From the NCBI GenBank assembly GCA_017616445.1, contig JAFZYE010000023.1, positions 1 through 61,827 of the forward strand: a stretch of 61,827 nucleotides of DNA, written 5' to 3'. The position numbers and the translations under genes were made by a program. This document shows, in pieces, positions 53,247-61,827 of this stretch. How positions within the stretch are numbered: the stretch's first letter is position 1; every line of letters starts with the position of its first letter. The stretch comes from Bacteroidaceae bacterium (GTDB lineage: Bacteria > Bacteroidota > Bacteroidia > Bacteroidales > Bacteroidaceae). Below the pieces are notes generated by a model. The model was not told the origin of the DNA and ran no database searches. It saw nothing but the letters and a program-made list of their open reading frames with translations.

Positions 53247-54443
53247 AAAAGTTAGAAGCTAAGAGTTAGGAGTTAGGAGTTTTTTTGATTTTTATCTAAT
53301 TCATAATGCATTATTTCTTAATTCTTAATTTTTAACTCTTAACTTAATAAGCTTTTCACTTTTCTCTTTTTTTCATTATAACGCAAACAATTTGTTTTGT
53401 CAAGTAATTTTTGATAATTTTTCAATCACCAGCGATGATCGTTGAAGGTGAGAGCATTTTTCGAAACTTATCAATTTAATAATTAGTTAGAAGTTAGAAA
53501 TTAGGAGTTAGGAGTTTTTTGATATTTCACTTTTCACTCTTTACTTTTCACTAATATTTGTTTCCCCTAAGGGCTGCAAAATTTTCCCTTAAGGGCTGCA
53601 TTTTTTATCCTTAGTCTCTTCTCAAAAAAACCTAAGGCAGAATATGACGGAATTGTTAATTTGTGAGACCATTTAAGTTAATTCGCATTGATGTGGTCAC
53701 GATGGTCATTTGTCAAAATCGTCATGACCGTTCCCTTTTTGCACCCTCGCGAGTCTGCACGTGTTCCCTCGCGAGCCTGCACGTGTAGCCTCGTGAGGCT
53801 GCAAGTTTTCCCTCGTGTCGCACCACCTATTGCATCCCTTTTAAGAGATACGGCCTTTCTCTATGAGCGAAACGGGTTCTCGCTATGAGTGAAACGGCTT
53901 GTTGCTGGGAGAGAAACGGCCTTTCTCTATTTGATGGTGGTCATGATGGTCATTAGTCAAAATGTCATTTGCGTTTCGCGTCTCAGTGTTACAGTTCAAA
54001 AGCAAGTCAACTCCTAACTTCGAACTACTAACTCCTAACTATTTTCTACAGTACATCTCTAATACATCTCTAATACATCTCTAGTTTATCTCTAGTTTAT
54101 CTCTAGTTCTTCTCTAGTTTCTGTAATTAGAATTATACTAGAGGAAGAATAGAGAAGAATATGAGGGATGCCTGAGAAGAACATAAGGAAAGGCTAAGAA
54201 ATGCAAGGGAAGACATTTCATAGAATTATTGCAACGTTTGTGCCTTTTCTGCGATATGGCCTTTCTCTATGAGCGATACGGTTTTTCTCTACTGGCGATA
54301 AGCCTTGTGCTGTTAGAGATTCATCTCAACTCATAACTCCTAACTCCAGACTCCTAACTGTGTTTCAACTATCAACTTTATCAACAGACTATCAACTTTA
54401 AATCATAAACTTTAAACTTTCTGTCCATTTTTCTTGATAAACA
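53247..54443. repeat. Gene-free repeat cluster before the restriction operon
   Basis: This stretch has no credible gene. It holds heptads (53247-53285, 53490-53515, and a ttttcac run near 53527). Two groups of 22-nt CTGCA dyads follow (53561-53604, two units; 53743-53808, three units plus a fragment). A second 22-nt family of the ctctatgagcgaaacgg type lies at 53832-53919 and 54238-54325. Two copies of a ggtcaygatggtcat stretch (about 53696 and 53936) and an 11-nt array (54053-54215) complete it. A hairpin TCACC...GGTGA lies near 53426-53454. Confidence 0.82.
54053..54215. repeat. 11-nt array, pyrimidine-rich left arm and purine-rich right arm
   Basis: Six units acatctctaat / ttatctctagt (54053-54118), a short centre, then seven purine-rich units at 54139-54215 (tagaggaagaa, tagagaagaat, atgagggatgc, ctgagaagaac, ataaggaaagg, ctaagaaatgc, aagggaagaca). 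The gaagaacataag in the right arm is the exact reverse complement of the cttatgttcttc in the array at 1000. Confidence 0.85.
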
Positions 54444-54475
54444 TTTGGTGGATTCAAATATATATCGTATTTTTG
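54444..54475 (+). promoter_or_regulatory. Promoter of the putative small RNA
   Basis: TTTG 54444-54447, 20 nt, TATTTTTG 54468-54475; predicted start of transcription near 54483. Confidence 0.72.
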
Positions 54476-54482
54476 CAATTGC

Positions 54483-54575
54483 ATCTGCCCTATGCGGCTA
54501 TGATGTCATCTGAGGATGACGGAGCTGATGGGTGGAGCACTACATATTGAAAGGCGTTACTGACGCTTTGTTTTT
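54483..54575 (+). ncRNA. Putative small RNA with terminator-like hairpin
   Basis: Directly after a good promoter is a compact segment with a 6-bp hairpin GTCATC-tgag-GATGAC. It ends in a hairpin formed by the two GCGT/ACGC arms at 54550-54569, followed by gttttt. Size about 90 nt. Open frames on both strands here are short and without clear codon structure. No known RNA family was recognised. Confidence 0.5.
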
Positions 54576-54640
54576 GGCCATTTCGAAACTTAGGAACTTT
54601 TGAATTGCAGGCGAAGGCAAATGCAGAGGTAACTCCACGG

Positions 54641-54720
54641 GGTGTAATATATACTCTCCGTAGTGTGCTGCGAGGATCGAGTGTCCTCAATGCACACTTT
54701 ACGGGTGTATTATATTCTCC
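54641..54720. other. Structured non-coding segment with 17-19 nt direct repeat around a hairpin
   Basis: ggtgtaatatatactctcc (54641-54659) is repeated as ggtgtattatattctcc (54704-54720). Between them AGTGTGC/GCACACT with an inner GAGGA/TCCTC forms a hairpin (54662-54698). A 62-aa open frame from 54605 crosses it; it could be a tiny gene, but the palindromes make a structured RNA or DNA element more likely. The following 54721-54900 has a short tagttg/caacta pairing (54825-54866) and no gene. Confidence 0.5.
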
Positions 54721-54939
54721 AACGTGGGTGTTTCTCTGTCTGTTTCTTGCAATGGGTTTCCTAAGACCTCGAATGGCGAACAGGCAGCAGTAAGCACCCG
54801 CGCTTTTTTATTTGTAGTTGGCGATAGTTATTGAACCTGTTCGCTCAGGGTGTTGGCGGACAACTATAAATAGATTAAGAAAAGAGTAAAGAAATTAATA
54901 GCGTCTTTGGCATCCTTGATTAGGCTGAAGAAGCAGAAT

Positions 54940-55095
54940 TAGGACCTCTGAGAACACATCAGTCAGACAAGGCAATGGATGTTTACGCTCATACGGGCGT
55001 GGACTGTACGATTGTTGTCTGATGTAGGCCGTCCTAAGCCTTGCTTCTCCCAATCCCTCCACGCCCCCTTTTCGAAACGAAGAGAGGGCTTTTTC
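54940..55095 (+). promoter_or_regulatory. Structured leader ending in a terminator-like hairpin at the methyltransferase ATG
   Basis: TAGGAC (54940-54945) pairs with GTCCTA (55031-55036). Inside, CAGACAA (54964-54970) pairs with TTGTCTG (55015-55021) and ACGC (54985-54988) with GCGT (54997-55000). A second possible pairing CAAGGC (54968-54973) / GCCTTG (55038-55043) competes with the first. Then CTTTTCG-aaa-CGAAGAG (55068-55084), flanked by CCCTC/GAGGG, is followed by cTTTTTc and the ATG. This is the layout of an attenuator or of an RNA with a terminator. Confidence 0.55.
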
Positions 55096-56439
55096 ATGTC
55101 AAAGAAGAAAACAATCAATGTTGGAACACTGTTCAGCGGTATAGGCGCATTTGAACATGCTTTAAATCAGTTAAACATAAACCATAAGATTATGTTTGCT
55201 TGTGACAATGGAGAGAGAGAACTCCCCTTGACATTTGGTGATTTGTCACAAATAATACAAGACATGAGCGAAAAACAAATTTTTGATTATTGCTCAAACT
55301 ATATAAATAAGATAGGGGTTAAGAAGGAGTTTCGTAAAATAGAAATAGACAATTTATTTCAATTAATCCAAATACGTGAAAAATTTTTTCCCCTTGAGCC
55401 TGTAATTATAAAATACTATAAGGAAAAAAGAAAAAGCGCAGTAAAACATCTCTTGCCTATAACGCAAGAGCAAATTAATACGATTACAGACGGAATGTCC
55501 ACAAAGCAAAGAGAAGAATTTGTAAATCGTCGTTATGCCCAATTAAAAGAAAGGAACTACGTTAAGGACGCATATATTGCAAATTATAAGATAAATGATT
55601 CTCAATGGCACGAAGATATTCGTTTTTTTGATGCAAATGAGTTTAATAATAAGATTGATATTCTTGTAGGTGGAAGTCCTTGCCAAAGTTTCTCGAACTA
55701 TGGGAAGAAACTTGGGCTCGAAGATGTTAGAGGGACTCTGTTTTATGACTATGCCCGAATTATTAAAGAGTCTCGTCCAAAGATATTTATATATGAGAAC
55801 GTTGAAAATGTTACTAAAAACGATGGGGGTAAAACATGGGAAGTAATGTTCGATGTTTGGCAGTCTCTTGGGTATCATATTGAATGGGCAATCCTAGACG
55901 CAAAAGATTATAATCACCCACAGTTAAGGAGCCGATTATTTTTAATTGGTTTTAGAGAAGATATTTTTACTAAGCCTTACACATTCCCTCCTAAGATGGA
56001 ATTGACCCATCGTAGTACAGAATATCTCGAAGCTGGCCCTATAGATGATATATACTATTTGGGAAAGAAAGGCTTCGAGTGGATTACAACCCCATCCAAA
56101 AACTTACGCAGATCAAGAGTGAACCAAGATGTTATAGGATGCGAGACCGCCAATCAACAAGACAATTGGATAGGTGATTTTCGAGTAGAACACCCTCTAC
56201 CGCATCACTATACAGACACCCGTATTTATGTTGGACAATTTGATTTTGGTGATGGAAACGGAAGAGTAGATGCCGTAGGAAGAAAAATGACTCCTAGAGA
56301 GTGTATGAATTTAATGGGGTTTGATGATACATTCAAAATAGTAGTCAATGATAGTATTGCATATCGTCATGCAGGAAATTCAATTGTTGTTCCTGTATTA
56401 AAAGAGTTAATAAAAAGTATAATTCCTTATATTTCTTGA
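55096..56439 (+). CDS. C5-cytosine DNA methyltransferase of a GTP-dependent RM operon
   Basis: 447 aa from ATG 55096 (MSKKKTINVG); a frame from 54979 reads through the leader hairpins and was rejected. Motif I 'VGTLFSGIGAFE' (about 8-20), motif II acidic 'FACDNGE', motif IV 'GGSPCQSFSNYGKK' with the catalytic Cys (about 198), motif VI 'IYENVENV' (about 233), motif VIII 'QLRSRLFLIGF' (about 276), a variable target domain (290-400) and motifs IX-X 'TPRECMNLMGF...RHAGNSIVVPVL'. It methylates cytosine to protect the host. A helical insert of about 135 residues lies between motifs II and IV. G+C is near 25-28%, much lower than most of the window. It ends 2 nt before the McrB-like gene. Confidence 0.93.
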   Translation: MSKKKTINVGTLFSGIGAFEHALNQLNINHKIMFACDNGERELPLTFGDLSQIIQDMSEKQIFDYCSNYINKIGVKKEFRKIEIDNLFQLIQIREKFFPLEPVIIKYYKEKRKSAVKHLLPITQEQINTITDGMSTKQREEFVNRRYAQLKERNYVKDAYIANYKINDSQWHEDIRFFDANEFNNKIDILVGGSPCQSFSNYGKKLGLEDVRGTLFYDYARIIKESRPKIFIYENVENVTKNDGGKTWEVMFDVWQSLGYHIEWAILDAKDYNHPQLRSRLFLIGFREDIFTKPYTFPPKMELTHRSTEYLEAGPIDDIYYLGKKGFEWITTPSKNLRRSRVNQDVIGCETANQQDNWIGDFRVEHPLPHHYTDTRIYVGQFDFGDGNGRVDAVGRKMTPRECMNLMGFDDTFKIVVNDSIAYRHAGNSIVVPVLKELIKSIIPYIS

Positions 56440-56441
56440 AT

Positions 56442-58232
56442 ATGGACTTTAGCGATTTAGATACCAGTTTAAAAGTGACATTGCAAAATGTTACATTGTA
56501 TTCAAATTGGTTATACAATAACCGCGATGCAATACGACTTGCTGAGAATAAAAGCAGCTTTATTACTTCACGAATAGGGTTTGTTGAAAGTAATAGAGGG
56601 GCCATTATATCATTTTTGAAAAAGACAGGTCTAGTGACTGCTACATTGGAGGTTTCTCCGTTAGCAATGCTTATTGCAAAAGAGGAATTGCTATATAGGG
56701 AGTTGTGTTTAATACATCTTTCAAAAGAAAGCCTTTTTTTAAAAGGGGAACCGAAAGTCAACCTAATCACTTTGCTGAGCAAATATGTTCAAGAGAAAAC
56801 AGAAAACGAATATAACCTTAACGAAATAAGAAACATAGATTTGTCATTTCAAGAAGTAGAAGGGAATAAAAACAGCAATAGTAGAACTGATTATATTGTG
56901 ACACTACTGGAGGGGACGGAACTCTTTAGACATAAGGGTAAAGTAGAAGACGGAGTTGTTGCTTTAACCTCTAAGGCAAGACCAATTTTAGATTATTTTG
57001 CAGAAAGGCCCATTGCGAATTGTGAAGACGATTTAAATTCTGTAAATAGATTTAATTATTTTAGCTCGTTAGAAAAAGGTGTTTTTGGCATTTTGTCCAA
57101 CGATATGCCTATATCTTGGATAGAGTTATTCCCTCATTTAACCCTTGACAATATAAAAAAAATAAAGAACAATTTCAATACTTCTCCAATGAATAAAAAA
57201 TTTCAATGCATTTTTTATGGTGCTCCTGGTACAGGAAAGTCTCATGAAATTAATGAATTAACAAGAGGTAAGAGCGTTATTCGCACAACGTTCCATCCAG
57301 ATAGTGATTACTCAACATTCGTGGGCTGTTATAAGCCAAAGATGAAACGGAGCACCATTACTAAGGATGGGGTGACAACGACAGAGGAGAAGATTGTATA
57401 TAGCTTCGAGCCACAGGCATTCACAAATGCTTACGTGCAGGCTTGGAAGAAAACAGATGACGTGTACTTGATTATTGAGGAAATCAATAGAGGTAACTGC
57501 GCTCAGATATTTGGTGATTTGTTCCAGTTGCTTGATCGCAAGAATGGTGAGTCAGAATACCCTGTGGAAACAGACTCTGCCCTTGCTGACTATTTGCAAA
57601 CAGCATTAGCTAATAGTGAGCGTAATGACATTCCGGCAGAAGTAAAGAATGGTACTAAACTTAAGCTTCCCTCAAACCTTTTCATCTGGGCCACAATGAA
57701 CACAAGTGACCAGAGCCTATTCCCAATTGATTCTGCCTTTAAGCGTCGTTGGGAGTGGAGGTACATGAAAATAAAGAACGAGAGAAAGGAATGGAAGATT
57801 GACGTAAAGATAAAGGATGCCAACGGAGAGGAAAAACTTGTAGATTGGTGGGACTTCATCCGTAAAGTCAACGACATCATCGCCTCTATGACATCGAGTG
57901 CTGACAAGCAGTTGGGTTACTTCTTCTGCAAGGCAGACAAGAAGACTCCAGAAAAGGCAGGTGAGCCAAATAGTGAAAACAATCTTATCTCCGTAGATAC
58001 ATTAGTAAGCAAAGTGCTGTTCTATCTTTGGAACGATGTTTTCAAAGACTATGGTTTTGAGGATGCCTCGTTGTTCCAATATACCAAGATGGAAGACGGT
58101 AAGGAAACGAAGAAGGATTTGACTTTCCCAGACTTCTACAAAGAAGACTGCAATGATGTGAATCCAACAATGGTGACTGATTTCGTTCAGAAGGTAATGA
58201 ACTGGAAGAAAAAGGAAGAAGCGCAGAACTGA
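56442..58232 (+). CDS. McrB-like AAA+ GTPase subunit (LlaJI R1 type)
   Basis: 596 aa, from ATG 56442, two nt after the methyltransferase stop. An in-frame TTG at 56436 overlaps that stop and is a possible alternative. The N-terminal 240 residues have no recognised motif and are AT-rich; they should bind DNA and read the target. The C-terminal part is a McrB-type GTPase: Walker A 'FYGAPGTGKSHEI' (about 260), Walker B 'VYLIIEEINRGNCAQIFGDLFQLLDR' (about 342), and the McrB signature 'WATMNTSDQSLFPIDSAFKRRW' (about 415). With the next gene it forms the GTP-driven motor of a restriction enzyme. Composition changes close to the Walker A codons. Confidence 0.92.
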   Translation: MDFSDLDTSLKVTLQNVTLYSNWLYNNRDAIRLAENKSSFITSRIGFVESNRGAIISFLKKTGLVTATLEVSPLAMLIAKEELLYRELCLIHLSKESLFLKGEPKVNLITLLSKYVQEKTENEYNLNEIRNIDLSFQEVEGNKNSNSRTDYIVTLLEGTELFRHKGKVEDGVVALTSKARPILDYFAERPIANCEDDLNSVNRFNYFSSLEKGVFGILSNDMPISWIELFPHLTLDNIKKIKNNFNTSPMNKKFQCIFYGAPGTGKSHEINELTRGKSVIRTTFHPDSDYSTFVGCYKPKMKRSTITKDGVTTTEEKIVYSFEPQAFTNAYVQAWKKTDDVYLIIEEINRGNCAQIFGDLFQLLDRKNGESEYPVETDSALADYLQTALANSERNDIPAEVKNGTKLKLPSNLFIWATMNTSDQSLFPIDSAFKRRWEWRYMKIKNERKEWKIDVKIKDANGEEKLVDWWDFIRKVNDIIASMTSSADKQLGYFFCKADKKTPEKAGEPNSENNLISVDTLVSKVLFYLWNDVFKDYGFEDASLFQYTKMEDGKETKKDLTFPDFYKEDCNDVNPTMVTDFVQKVMNWKKKEEAQN

Positions 58233-60577
58233 TGTATATCCTGTTTGAAGAACACCAATACGAAAGCCACCTTGTGGAGAAAGTTCTGAAGGATATCTAT
58301 GTCCTGCAGGATGTTGACAAGCGGGTGAGTGTGCAGTATGTGGGCTATTTCTATAATCCGCATCTGCATGACTGTGTGTTCATTCTGCCCAAGGTGTTGC
58401 TGACGGAACAGGAAACATTGGTGGGTGTAAAACAGGAATCTGGAGAATCTGTAACACCAGAAATGGTGCTGGAACCGAAAGGTCAGGAAAAACTGAGCAA
58501 GGAATATAGAAAGTTCATCTATGAGTTCTCTGTTTGGATATATAGGGCATTGAATGTGTTCTACAAAGCCAATCCCAAGAGCAAAGCCATCCTCTATAAG
58601 CATCTGCCACAAGCAGGAAAAGGACGCAGGCATCAGGCGAAAACGTATCTGGACATTGTGCTGTCGCTCATCAACTTCAACCAGGAGAACCGCAACTTCG
58701 TGCTATTCACCATCAAGAACCTGCACAGAGGAAACAACAAAATCAACTGGACGCGTACCATTTCACATTCGCAGGCTTTTGTGCAGGATAAGGATGTGGT
58801 GTATCTGAACCCTGTAAACAAGAAACGCATAGTGAACTATGAGGAGGAACTATTCGTTATCTTCTACAGCATACTGAACTTTCTGAACGGAGCATACGGC
58901 TTCCATACTCCCATCAATATCCAGTATGAACTGATTACGGGTAAGCAGTTCAAACAATATATGCAAGGGATGGGCAAGACGAGGCTGATGCAGATAAAGT
59001 ACAAGTATTTCTCGGACAAGGCCCTTCAACTGTGGGATTTGTGCTACGCATTCTTCGAGAATTCTTATCGGATTGCCATCAACACGAATGCGCAGGAGTA
59101 TCTTTTGGCCAAGAGTTTCAATATCGTATTTGAGGCGATGATTGACGAACTGATAGGTACGCCTCATCAAGATATACCTAAGGGGCTGGCTGATCAGGAC
59201 GATGGCAAACGGGTTGACCACATGTACACAGATTTGGCTTTGACATCAGCAGAAGCCCAAACGAGCAGGGAGGTATATTATATCGGTGACAGCAAATATT
59301 ATAAGAGCGGGCATCCGCTGACATCGGAGTCTATCTATAAGCAGTACACTTACGCACGAAACGTCATACAATGGAATATCAATTTGTTCCTGTCGGACGA
59401 TACTGCATATGATGAACTGGACAAGCAAAAGCGAGAAGTAGATAGAGGTCGCTTTGGAAACATCCACTTACAGGATGCATCTACGACTGAAGGCTACGAT
59501 GTGATACCAAATTTCTTTATCAGCGCCTTTGTCAATGATGATCTTAAGTATAACGTTCAGGAGAACATACGACCACACAAAGACAAAAACGAAGAGCATT
59601 GCACCAAGGTGTCGTATCAATTTCCTGACCGCCTGTTTGACAGAGATACGTTGTTCCTATCTCAGTATGATGTGAACTTCCTATATGTACTCTTCCTGTA
59701 TGCACGTAACAAAGCCAACGAGAAGTCACAATGGAAAGAACATGTAAGGAAAAAGTTCCGCGACGAAATACGAGCTGTCATTCAGAAAGAGTTCATAATA
59801 TATGCGATGCGAGCCCGTTTGGGTGTGGACGGAGCATTATATCTGCAGCAGCACTTCTATGAACTGAACGGCAGAGTGTTCCAACCGTATGGTGAGGAAC
59901 GAATGACGTATTTCGCCTATGCACGTCCAGCGAAGAATTTAGAGAAAACACAGGCACAATACGATGAGTTGTCACGATACTTTGTTATTAAGGAATGCAG
60001 TATGGGAAAAGACCCGCAGGACGTGCTAAAACCCGCTATTGAACAGGAGCTACAGCAACCTGTCGCACATTCGCATTGGTTGACGCTGCACTATTTGGAA
60101 CGATATGCTGATAAAGGCATCCTTGTGGGTTACTACAAGGATGAAGAGCATCTGAAATGGATTTTGGGGCATAACGATAAAGGCTCATTGGTTTACAATG
60201 TACGTTTGCAAGTAAAAGGTGAGGAACCAAGAGCGGGTGCACATACGGCAGGCTTCTATAGCAAGAAAAATGTTCAGTTCGTTATCCTATATACCGATGG
60301 CGTAGAACAAACGGGCGAGTTTCGTGTATTTCATGTAAAGGATACGGCCAGCAAAGTGACCGAAGAACGAATGCGTGGCACATGGTACCCATTCGATGTA
60401 AAGGGCCCTCATTTCTTTTTCCGATTTGACGAGGAGGTGACGCTGGGGAAACTACAGATTCGTGAAATGCTGGCGCATCTGCGAGTAAAACACCTTGAAG
60501 AGTTTGGCTCTTATGAAGAAGGCGAGCCGCTATTTTCTACGGCGGAGGAAGTATTAAAGTATAGAGAGGGATTCTGA
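58232..60577 (+). CDS. McrC-like nuclease subunit (LlaJI R2 type)
   Basis: 781 aa. It overlaps the McrB-like stop by 1 nt (TGATG). The middle holds a PD-(D/E)xK nuclease: 'KRVDHMYTDLAL' followed by 'VYYIGDSKYYKSGHPLTSESIYKQYTYARN' (D-x-K about 352-355), with the conserved 'Q-x-x-x-Y' after it. N-terminal 300 residues are helical and probably contact the GTPase ring; the C-terminal 250 residues ('HWLTLHYLERYADKGILVGYYKD', 'HFFFRFDEEVTLGKLQIREML') are beta-rich. McrC stimulates McrB GTPase and cuts DNA. It is longer than E. coli McrC (about 350 aa), in keeping with LlaJI-type R2. Codon use is like the host. Confidence 0.9.
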   Translation: MYILFEEHQYESHLVEKVLKDIYVLQDVDKRVSVQYVGYFYNPHLHDCVFILPKVLLTEQETLVGVKQESGESVTPEMVLEPKGQEKLSKEYRKFIYEFSVWIYRALNVFYKANPKSKAILYKHLPQAGKGRRHQAKTYLDIVLSLINFNQENRNFVLFTIKNLHRGNNKINWTRTISHSQAFVQDKDVVYLNPVNKKRIVNYEEELFVIFYSILNFLNGAYGFHTPINIQYELITGKQFKQYMQGMGKTRLMQIKYKYFSDKALQLWDLCYAFFENSYRIAINTNAQEYLLAKSFNIVFEAMIDELIGTPHQDIPKGLADQDDGKRVDHMYTDLALTSAEAQTSREVYYIGDSKYYKSGHPLTSESIYKQYTYARNVIQWNINLFLSDDTAYDELDKQKREVDRGRFGNIHLQDASTTEGYDVIPNFFISAFVNDDLKYNVQENIRPHKDKNEEHCTKVSYQFPDRLFDRDTLFLSQYDVNFLYVLFLYARNKANEKSQWKEHVRKKFRDEIRAVIQKEFIIYAMRARLGVDGALYLQQHFYELNGRVFQPYGEERMTYFAYARPAKNLEKTQAQYDELSRYFVIKECSMGKDPQDVLKPAIEQELQQPVAHSHWLTLHYLERYADKGILVGYYKDEEHLKWILGHNDKGSLVYNVRLQVKGEEPRAGAHTAGFYSKKNVQFVILYTDGVEQTGEFRVFHVKDTASKVTEERMRGTWYPFDVKGPHFFFRFDEEVTLGKLQIREMLAHLRVKHLEEFGSYEEGEPLFSTAEEVLKYREGF

Positions 60578-60606
60578 CCTTAAGCTTTCAAATATCTTTC
60601 TTCGTC

Positions 60607-60683
60607 CTACCCTTACTCTACCCATACTCATGAGTAAGCTTAGGAGCAGCTTAGGAGCAGGCTAGAGTATGGGTAGAATATGC
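60607..60683. repeat. 11-nt array with palindromic arms next to the RAYT gene
   Basis: Seven 11-nt units: ctacccttact, ctacccatact, catgagtaagc, ttaggagcagc, ttaggagcagg, ctagagtatgg, gtagaatatgc. The outer arms form tctacccatactc / gagtatgggtaga (13 bp). Flanking cttaag/cttaagcc sequences add symmetry. Confidence 0.87.
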
Positions 60684-60753
60684 TTAAGCCTTGTTTCCTG
60701 TTGAAAAATGAAGAAAAACTGAACAACATATTCGGTTATTCGTAGAAATGTTG

Positions 60754-60761
60754 TATCTTTG
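60754..60761 (+). promoter_or_regulatory. Promoter -7 box of the RAYT gene
   Basis: TATCTTTG, about 34 nt before the ATG at 60795. The -33 region (ttcgg at 60731) is weak. Confidence 0.55.
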
Positions 60762-60794
60762 CACTATTCAAGTATAAAAGTAGTATTGCAAAGG

Positions 60795-61694
60795 ATGGCT
60801 GAGCAAGAGAAATGGCAATGGCAGGAGCCAGGAACAGCATGGAAGGGCGCAGGTCTGTATCACATTACGCTGACAATAACAGACCGCCAGCCTTTATTGG
60901 GCACATTGGTGATTCCACATCATAATCCAACTATGGCCAAAGTCCATCGTACTGCTTTAGGGAATGCCCTTGTGGATTGTCTGCTGGGGATTCCACATTA
61001 CCATCCTGAGGTGCAAGTGCTCCATTTCTGCCTGATGCCCGACCACCTGCATGCGGTGCTTTATGTGAGGCATAGGATGGAGAAAGGAATTGGGACGCTT
61101 GTGCGGGGATTCTGGCAGGGGGCAAAGAAACTGGGGCGTGCTCATTCGGTGGCTTCTTGTGTTGACCCGAATGATATTCGGGAGAACTTCCATGAAGAGA
61201 AAAATAAGGAAAAACACCAAGAGGAAACAAACCTGAGAGAAAGCCAAGAAGAGAAAACGCAGGGGAGTCTGCAAGAAGAGACTGCTCGATTAGAGGAACT
61301 CTCAGATGGGCTATGCAAAGAGATGGGGAATGAGGCTTACTACCGTCTGGAACCAGTCTTCGCTGAGATGCCTTTCGTTCGTCCGATGGGGCGACGCTCA
61401 CAATTGCCCAACACAATCCGCTATATTGATATGAATCCGCAACGTCTGGCCACGAAACGCCTCATGCCTGGTTTGTTCCGTGTACAGAAGGATATAGAAA
61501 TTGGCGGACGGAAATATGACGGGGTGGGAAATACGACGTTGCTAATGGCAGAGCACTTTATGCCTGTCCATGTGCGCCACGAGTTGCTGGACGAGGCCGC
61601 CCACGGTGATAGCCAGCCTCTTCGCAACTATATGAACGGCTGTGTTCTGGAAGCCCGTCGGGGGACGATGATGGTTTCGCCTTTCATTTCCTGA
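60795..61694 (+). CDS. Y1 (HUH) transposase-like RAYT protein, probably C-terminally clipped
   Basis: 299 aa from ATG 60795; the frame's earlier TTG (60759) lies inside the promoter. 'HFCLMPDHLHAVLYV' (about residues 77-91) is the IS200/REP-associated HUH motif (H-L-H), 'GAGLYHITLTITDR' the first strand, and 'NTIRYIDMNPQRLATKRL' holds the catalytic-Tyr type 'Y-I-x-x-N-P'. A charged insert rich in Glu/Lys/Gln (about 130-175) lies in the middle. The C-terminus reads 'GTMMVSPFIS-stop', which looks like the middle of a longer family domain ('VSPxIS...'), so the protein may have been cut short by the element starting at the end of the window. RAYTs move short palindromic repeats; a suitable repeat lies 112 nt upstream. 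Confidence 0.8.
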   Translation: MAEQEKWQWQEPGTAWKGAGLYHITLTITDRQPLLGTLVIPHHNPTMAKVHRTALGNALVDCLLGIPHYHPEVQVLHFCLMPDHLHAVLYVRHRMEKGIGTLVRGFWQGAKKLGRAHSVASCVDPNDIRENFHEEKNKEKHQEETNLRESQEEKTQGSLQEETARLEELSDGLCKEMGNEAYYRLEPVFAEMPFVRPMGRRSQLPNTIRYIDMNPQRLATKRLMPGLFRVQKDIEIGGRKYDGVGNTTLLMAEHFMPVHVRHELLDEAAHGDSQPLRNYMNGCVLEARRGTMMVSPFIS

Positions 61695-61804
61695 CTTCGT
61701 CGATTTTTCAAATTCAAAAAATCAGAGCCTGATAATCAATCAGTTATGATTAGATTTTGGGGTGATTTGGGTGGCGCAAGCATTTTTTTGTGTATCTTTG
61801 CAGC
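61695..61804. other. Possible left end of an insertion sequence
   Basis: A/T-rich leader after the RAYT stop, with no gene. TATCTTTG lies at 61793-61800 and a TTTG at 61766-61769 (23 nt apart, longer than usual). The box is only 4 nt from the next ATG. Confidence 0.35.
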
Positions 61805-61827
61805 ATGTTTGTACGCAAAAAGAAAAA
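61805..61827 (+). CDS. Start of a transposase gene, cut by the window end
   Basis: Only M-F-V-R-K-K-K is visible. This opening is typical of IS1634/IS4-type transposases of Bacteroidales ('MFVRKKKN-x-S-G'), so a mobile element probably begins here. The very short or absent leader fits a leaderless transposase mRNA. The call rests on seven residues. Confidence 0.35.

Follow-up and report, generated by a model that had tools for sequence, protein, structure and literature searches.

A DNA methyltransferase and the presumed recognition half of an McrB-like protein have very probably been exchanged as one block behind a structured leader RNA in a Bacteroidaceae restriction operon

Results

A LlaJI-like restriction operon with a structured leader

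The window analysed here is a contig of 61,827 nt (JAFZYE010000023.1) from the draft genome of a Prevotella-type member of the Bacteroidaceae that is 70% complete and distributed over 81 contigs, and it carries a restriction operon (55096–60577) preceded by a structured leader RNA. Judged by sequence, this operon is LlaJI-like, comprising a C5 cytosine DNA methyltransferase (methylase), an McrB-like motor protein and an McrC-like subunit. An earlier annotation of this DNA (the original prediction) had noticed a step in G+C content inside the McrB-like gene near its Walker A motif and proposed that recombination had replaced the methylase and the upstream half of McrB together. Our comparison with related loci indicates that the methylase and the McrB N-terminal half (N-half) up to about Walker A were very probably replaced together as a single block, with homologous recombination as the most likely mechanism. 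The parts of the operon that bear on this proposal are as follows.

55096–56439, plus strand: C5 cytosine DNA methyltransferase, first gene of the proposed exchanged cassette (Pfam DNA_methylase, E 4e-67)
55096–55110, plus strand: start codon and the following four codons (MSKKK), held in common with the leader arm, with the putative left junction about at their end
56442–57218, plus strand: N-terminal half of the McrB-like protein, presumed target recognition, second part of the proposed cassette
57210–57281, plus strand: right junction interval, consisting of Walker A and a variable linker, placed from homology starts, linker comparison, the interval for third-codon-position G+C and the break in total G+C
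57219–57242, plus strand: Walker A (GAPGTGKS), conserved among motors
57282–58232, plus strand: AAA+ motor half of the McrB-like protein, retained block (Pfam AAA_5; PDB matches to McrB chains)
58232–60577, plus strand: McrC-like subunit, 781 amino acids, retained block, with PD-(D/E)XK-like residues
60071–60574, plus strand: C-terminal domain of the McrC-like subunit, possibly of YTH/EVE-like fold (a lead)

The whole McrB-like gene (56442–58232) is a single frame that crosses the right junction uninterrupted, and its ATG lies two bases from the stop of the methylase, which places a cognate methylase in the operon. At the amino acid level, the motor half is 89% identical to that of locus L151 over 316 residues and the McrC-like subunit 90% identical to its counterpart in genome G047. 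An alignment of 13 McrC-like sequences shows D329 and D353-S-K355 to be invariant in a PD-(D/E)XK-like arrangement; the subunit has no Pfam family at cut-off, no PADLOC match, no PDB sequence match and no Foldseek match at E 0.001. In the McrB N-half, Pfam finds no domain at E values up to 0.05, and the structure model of McrB was unusable (mean predicted local distance difference test score of 36). By analogy with McrB and LlaJI, this half would be the recognition domain.

Homology to relatives breaks at both ends of the proposed cassette

When McrB was searched in 301 genomes of the family, the best foreign match came from G047, a genome of the same genus, with 86% identity that covers residues 252–598 only. 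At the nucleotide level, this locus matches the window along the leader (76.6% identity at 54530–54862 and 83.9% at 54868–55110) and again at 57282–60451 (83.3%), with nothing between the leader and 57282 at blastn E 1e-5. The G047 methylase is 27.6% identical to that of the window in amino acids, and its N-half shows no detectable similarity to that of the window. The search proposed in the original prediction, for a strain sharing leader, motor half and McrC but carrying another methylase, thus found its object in G047. The methylase closest to that of the window (68% amino acid identity) comes from G082, which belongs to another genus. Residues 1–250 of the N-half are matched, besides in the window's own genome, only in G082 as well (25% amino acid identity, E 1e-15; both searches in the 301 genomes). 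This G082 locus (L118) combines the same leader, the closest methylase and the sole N-half relative found with a motor of another sequence type, so that a methylase and an N-half of the window's kind do occur together elsewhere. Between its methylase and McrB-like gene (about 4440–5400 of L118) we also noticed a 318-amino-acid frame on the opposite strand that looks transposase-like by eye.

On the left, nucleotide homology to three leader-bearing loci with other methylases (L132, L143 and L151) ends at 55110–55115, and 13 of the 16 frames that abut the second leader module start with [MV][SAP]KK. The left junction therefore appears to lie near codon 5 of the methylase. The border had originally been placed at the ATG, directly after the leader hairpin; it is indeed sharp and follows the hairpin, yet it falls about five codons inside the gene.

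The right junction was mapped with 14 loci picked from those fetched. Long matches to the window start at 57280–57282 in G047, G021 and L132, at 57210 in L147, near 57390–57405 in L131, L135, L136 and L144, and near 57656–57684 in L129, L130, L137, L138, L141 and L143; some of the later-starting loci have short matches further left, including at Walker A. With starts that differ in this way between loci, a single recombination hot spot was rejected. The later starts may be junctions or mosaic motors, or may reflect variable loops. The linker of the window (57243–57281) is not shared by G047, L132, L147 and G021, whose linkers resemble each other, and G047 and L132 even have an identical linker peptide despite unrelated N-halves. 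This pattern, together with the interval for the compositional change-point described below, which coincides with the homology start at 57282, favors a right junction 3' of Walker A. The region of this motif itself (57210–57242, 33 bases) is most similar in L042 (31 identical bases), L118 of G082 (29) and L046 (29), while the other 25 motors share 24–28 bases, G047 among them with 24. A blastn match of 28 of 29 bases had suggested the Walker A codons of G082 as a donor tag, an idea that we dropped after this like-for-like count. Since these codons do not decide the matter, the right junction is given as 57210–57281. The proposal of recombination within the Walker A codons was accordingly right about the place in this operon to within this resolution, but no single site of this kind is shared across relatives.

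Methylase and N-half co-vary independently of motor and McrC

To follow the parts of the operon across loci, we used a scan of genome contigs with the McrC alignment, which yielded 26 loci, mostly from ruminant-gut Prevotella and relatives. Four pairs of names denote the same contigs and were counted once (L143 and L092, L145 and L040, L148 and L042, L151 and L038). Mantel tests covered 18 of 28 loci, i.e., those with a C5 methylase and an McrC of more than 600 amino acids. Motor and McrC were strongly correlated (rho 0.725, p 0.0005), as were N-half and methylase to a lesser degree (rho 0.405, p 0.0005), while methylase and McrC (rho -0.106, p 0.80) and N-half and motor (rho 0.020, p 0.37) were not. 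This pattern points to two units of inheritance, methylase with McrB N-half and motor with McrC, and the absence of correlation between N-half and motor bears out the expectation that the two McrB halves have separate histories.

Pairwise comparisons agree with this picture. Any N-half similarity is seen in merely 6 of the 119 locus pairs whose McrC proteins are at least 70% identical. Methylases are at least 55% identical in nine of ten pairs with similar N-halves vs 6 of 143 other pairs (Fisher p 5e-10). Conversely, the motors of pairs with methylases at least 80% identical are 49–84% identical, with seven of nine pairs at 65% or below; L141 and L090 are an example of such a reverse swap, with methylases 89% and motors 49% identical. 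Swaps thus seem, from these sequence relationships, to go both ways. Some loci contain two C5 methylase frames (e.g., L092, L136 and L152).

Composition locates the break but does not identify an event

The step in composition is real. All seven 60-base G+C values counted by hand for the original prediction were exact on recount, with 25% at 55321, 28% at 56821, 23% at 57121 and 33% at 57181, followed by 38% at 57241, 40% at 57481 and 45% at 57661. Across methylase, McrB and McrC, the change-point of G+C at third codon positions (GC3) lies at 57318 (2-log-unit interval 57258–57348), with 29.1% to its left and 52.2% to its right; the log-likelihood gain is 48.6, compared to a maximum of 8.6 in 200 shuffles, and for McrB alone it is 15.7 vs 7.5 in 500 shuffles. 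Total G+C breaks at 57265, rising from 34.1% to 43.9%. Low G+C extends over 55.1–57.3 kb with a milder patch near 55.9–56.4 kb (38–42% in 300-base windows), and GC3 is 40.9–69.0% in the other non-overlapping frames of the window with at least 200 amino acids.

The same step is found in all 28 homologous McrB genes, where GC3 of the N-half is always below that of the motor (means 30.6 vs 48.2). The original prediction had named just this, a step common to all homologues, as an observation that would refute it, and we no longer take composition to prove that a swap occurred recently. Composition alone singles out no particular event, and the case for exchange rests on the breaks in homology. An AT-rich pool may be the source of all the exchanged blocks, or these may have been kept AT-rich.

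Weighing block exchange against its alternatives

The universal step would also be expected if there had been no exchange at all, i.e., if the operon were inherited as a unit in which methylase and N-half evolve fast under diversifying selection with an intrinsic AT bias. In addition, alignments of R1.LlaJI with its relatives are reported to be confined mostly to the C-terminal half (PMC1459862). Against this explanation, where loci share at least 78% McrC identity but differ in their N-halves, the C5 methylases are 25–43% identical or none was found (L130, L138 and L147), while methylases at least 80% identical sit on the divergent motors described above. Furthermore, homology falls off within tens of bases, and the methylase and N-half vary independently of motor and McrC in the Mantel tests, with incongruent histories of methylase and McrC. 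We therefore consider unitary inheritance improbable.

A swap by a site-specific switch of the invertible or shufflon type, instead of homologous recombination, appears still somewhat less probable. Such switches are known for type I specificity genes (PMC7394358, PMC6265443), and a serine recombinase is the first gene behind the leader at L100. The region 54300–61827 also contains one weak inverted pair (19 nt, 84%) with arms at 54421 and in McrC at 60259, which is probably due to chance. However, this region lacks direct repeats of at least 18 nt, McrB, McrC and methylase have one match each in the 70% of the genome that is assembled, and the junction positions differ between loci. An assembly or binning chimera, conceivable in a fragmented draft, is hardly credible given the continuous McrB frame and the recurrence of this architecture with other cassettes. 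It is seen in the sequence records for Prevotella sp. tf2-5 and S. copri iAQ1173, and also in the complete chromosome of Prevotella communis E15-14 (L143, which shares its contig stretch with L092).

Block exchange of methylase and N-half remains the best explanation, and several observations temper it. The loci are related, and the Mantel permutation corrects for kinship incompletely. Among the 15 pairs whose methylases share at least 55% identity, six lack N-half similarity; L135, for instance, shares its methylase with L144 and L151 (84%) but no N-half similarity. Identity between the N-half and its relative in G082 is just 25%, long matches to many relatives begin only at about 57395 or 57656–57684, and the Walker A codons cannot tell to which side of the junction they belong. 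The composition step in all 28 genes neither dates nor proves an event. Finally, the window's species is represented in the comparison by this one strain, so that the earlier allele is not visible, and the genome of the window is itself an incomplete draft. The joint swap of target recognition and methylase with retention of motor and McrC, as originally proposed, is hence upheld by the co-variation and by G047, and qualified by the methylase pairs that lack N-half similarity.

In such an exchange, the left crossover would take place in the shared leader and first methylase codons and the right one in conserved sequence of the motor, either at Walker A or immediately 3' of it. The cut target and the protected target would then change in one step, with motor and McrC kept. 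We infer that the cassette is the newcomer and that homologous recombination is the agent.

The leader consists of two structured RNA modules

The left arm of the proposed exchange contains the following elements.

54439–54488, plus strand: promoter-like stretch 5' of the leader, parts of which match at 80–87% in six other sites of the window's own genome
54484–54809, plus strand: leader module A (start inferred), a structured RNA with a large terminator-like hairpin at its end (54723–54809), from an alignment of 36 sequences
54589–54597, plus strand: 5' strand of the long-range helix of module A, pairing with 54756–54765
54756–54765, plus strand: 3' strand of this helix, pairing with 54589–54597
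54911–55050, plus strand: core of leader module B, a structured RNA (23 sequences; structure of 45 pairs including the terminator)
55063–55094, plus strand: terminator-like hairpin with U-run, directly 5' of the methylase ATG (helices 6 and 7 of the module B structure)

The promoter-like stretch at 54439–54488 has a putative resemblance to the Bacteroidales promoter consensus. Behind it, the leader is a tandem of modules A (54484–54809) and B (about 54911–55094), which occur together or alone at different loci and each end in a terminator-like hairpin, the second one immediately upstream of the methylase. In the 3' part of module A, 13 of 33 pairs are changed on both sides and covariation is 0.226 compared to 0.150 in shuffled alignments; in module B with its terminator, 98.7% of cells are paired, 15 of 45 pairs are changed on both sides and covariation is 0.209 compared to 0.098. 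None of 500 shuffles reached the observed value in either case, with structures that were predicted from the same alignments on which they were scored. The long-range helix of module A is supported by 36 sequences whose own strands can form 7.4 Watson-Crick nucleotides on average (at least six in 34 of them), as opposed to a mean of 5.2 and a maximum of 5.75 when strands were re-dealt 200 times; the corresponding means for the long-range helix of module B (23 sequences) are 7.1 and 4.3 nt. The leader matches no Rfam 15 family at gathering score, and with E values up to 10 its sole match is mir-374 on the other strand (E 4). It thus has no credible match to a known Rfam RNA family.

The long open frame extends upstream of the methylase ATG (54979–55095) into this structured leader; in automatic annotation, the methylase start may be placed too far upstream.

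The leader precedes diverse defense genes and some envelope genes

Matches to the leader occur in 115 of 399 genomes of the family, many of them short, and 40 loci from the top of the match list were fetched. Our tally of 47 first downstream genes includes five loci reached via McrB, McrC or the window (the window itself, L043, L129, L132 and L137) and excludes L113, which is without a usable frame. C5 methylases account for 35 of these 47 genes and defense genes altogether for 43, the others being N6 methylases (L115, L127 and L129), a TdeIII endonuclease (L104), McrB-like proteins (L124 and L125), a helicase-PLD protein (L126) and an AIPR protein (L128). Among the 42 loci found through the leader itself, 39 have a defense gene in first position, and the three others have a recombinase (L100), a hexapeptide transferase (L061) and an unassigned protein (L109).

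Searches of 121 family genomes with the covariance models R2 and R1 (E 1e-8) detected the modules in 28 and 12 genomes, respectively; module A is present in up to four copies. At 36 further places found with these models (30 first genes scanned), the first gene is a defense gene in seven cases, an envelope or surface gene in nine (MBOAT, Acyl_transf_3, GtrA, CotH, LRR, OMP and BACON) and NusG-like in one; the remaining scanned genes have no assignment. Because such divergent copies also precede envelope genes, a view of the leader as a purely restriction-associated element is too narrow. None of five distant Bacteroidales places found by motif precedes a C5 methylase, and other genes follow there. 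Under stricter filters, R2 (module A) matched only the window's own genome among 198 Bacteroidota genomes. The leader had no match on plasmids or phages in two collections, and no McrC relatives were confirmed in viral contigs.

One chromosomal site illustrates how far the cargo can differ. L090 (G315) and L100 (G127) share 91% identity along 3.3 kb of upstream sequence and across the leader, after which L090 carries a methylase-McrBC cargo vs a serine recombinase and other genes in L100, with one 113-base match between the two cargoes, and homology resumes downstream at 90%. At this site (3013–4300 of L100 in G127:C55, compared with L090 in G315:C68), the end of the leader forms the left border of a replacement of the whole cargo. 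The L100 leader differs in its 3' hairpin and has mostly lost its long-range helix, with 5 instead of 8 pairs. At a further locus, L096 (about 1540–1740), the frame from the leader's ATG seems to stop after few codons and the methylase frame follows around 190 bases later, possibly due to a frameshift.

We propose, with slightly less than even confidence, that the leader represents an undescribed Bacteroidaceae class of structured RNA, lying in front of defense operons and, as divergent copies, in front of envelope and polysaccharide genes, that would act both as a transcription attenuator of these phage-facing genes and as a common left arm for the exchange of defense cargo. If true, any incoming cassette would be under the same leader control from its first codon.

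Directly 3' of McrC, the window encodes a 311-amino-acid frame (60759–61694) with no Pfam match, and a frame with a very similar start comes after the cargo in L100. It is reminiscent of transposases associated with repetitive extragenic palindromes (REP).

Discussion

The operon studied here most resembles LlaJI of Lactococcus lactis, in which 5-methylcytosine methylase genes are followed by the McrB-like R1, whose N-terminal half is unique, and the PD-(D/E)XK protein R2, with R1 binding the target site (PMC1459862). The recognition domain of LlaJI is of B3 type and those of the McrBC family vary between SRA, YTH, EVE and B3 (PMC12707154). The operon shares with LlaJI a C5 methylase followed by an McrB-like motor with an unrelated N-half, and its McrC-like subunit is a candidate PD-(D/E)XK nuclease. 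It differs in having one methylase where LlaJI has more than one methylase gene, a 781-amino-acid McrC-like subunit with a possible YTH/EVE-like C-terminal domain, a structured leader and the block exchange of methylase and N-half. The AAA+ motor with its matches to McrB chains and the putative PD-(D/E)XK-like partner are also reminiscent of type IV McrBC systems, yet the C5 methylase in the operon sets it apart from these, and by analogy with LlaJI it would be expected to restrict unmodified DNA. The leader resembles Rfam leader and riboswitch families in being a structured 5' element with terminators and covariation, but matches none of them at gathering score.

Specificity exchange in restriction systems and varied N-terminal domains of McrB relatives are already known. 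In type I hsdS and Helicobacter pylori methylases, recombination replaces a specificity part and leaves the remainder in place (PMC3077401, PMC3983042, PMC7394358). The exchange proposed here is alike in swapping a specificity part and retaining the rest, but unlike these exchanges of target recognition domains it would move a whole methylase gene plus half of another protein, reaching from the leader RNA to the motor gene. As far as our limited literature searches show, this block transfer is new, and so is a structured leader common to unrelated defense operons; these searches, with subscription papers mostly beyond reach, found nothing on leader RNAs of restriction operons in Bacteroidales.

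A restriction system whose target changes without a simultaneous change of its methylase attacks its own chromosome. The operons described here suggest a genetic solution to this problem, in which the recognition half is encoded next to the methylase and, as a rule, moves with it as one cassette between two conserved arms. The evolution of specificity in LlaJI-type systems would thereby become readable from genomes, with natural chimeras as a resource for finding their targets. It also raises the question of whether one leader RNA controls, and helps to exchange, a part of the defense repertoire of gut and rumen Bacteroidaceae.

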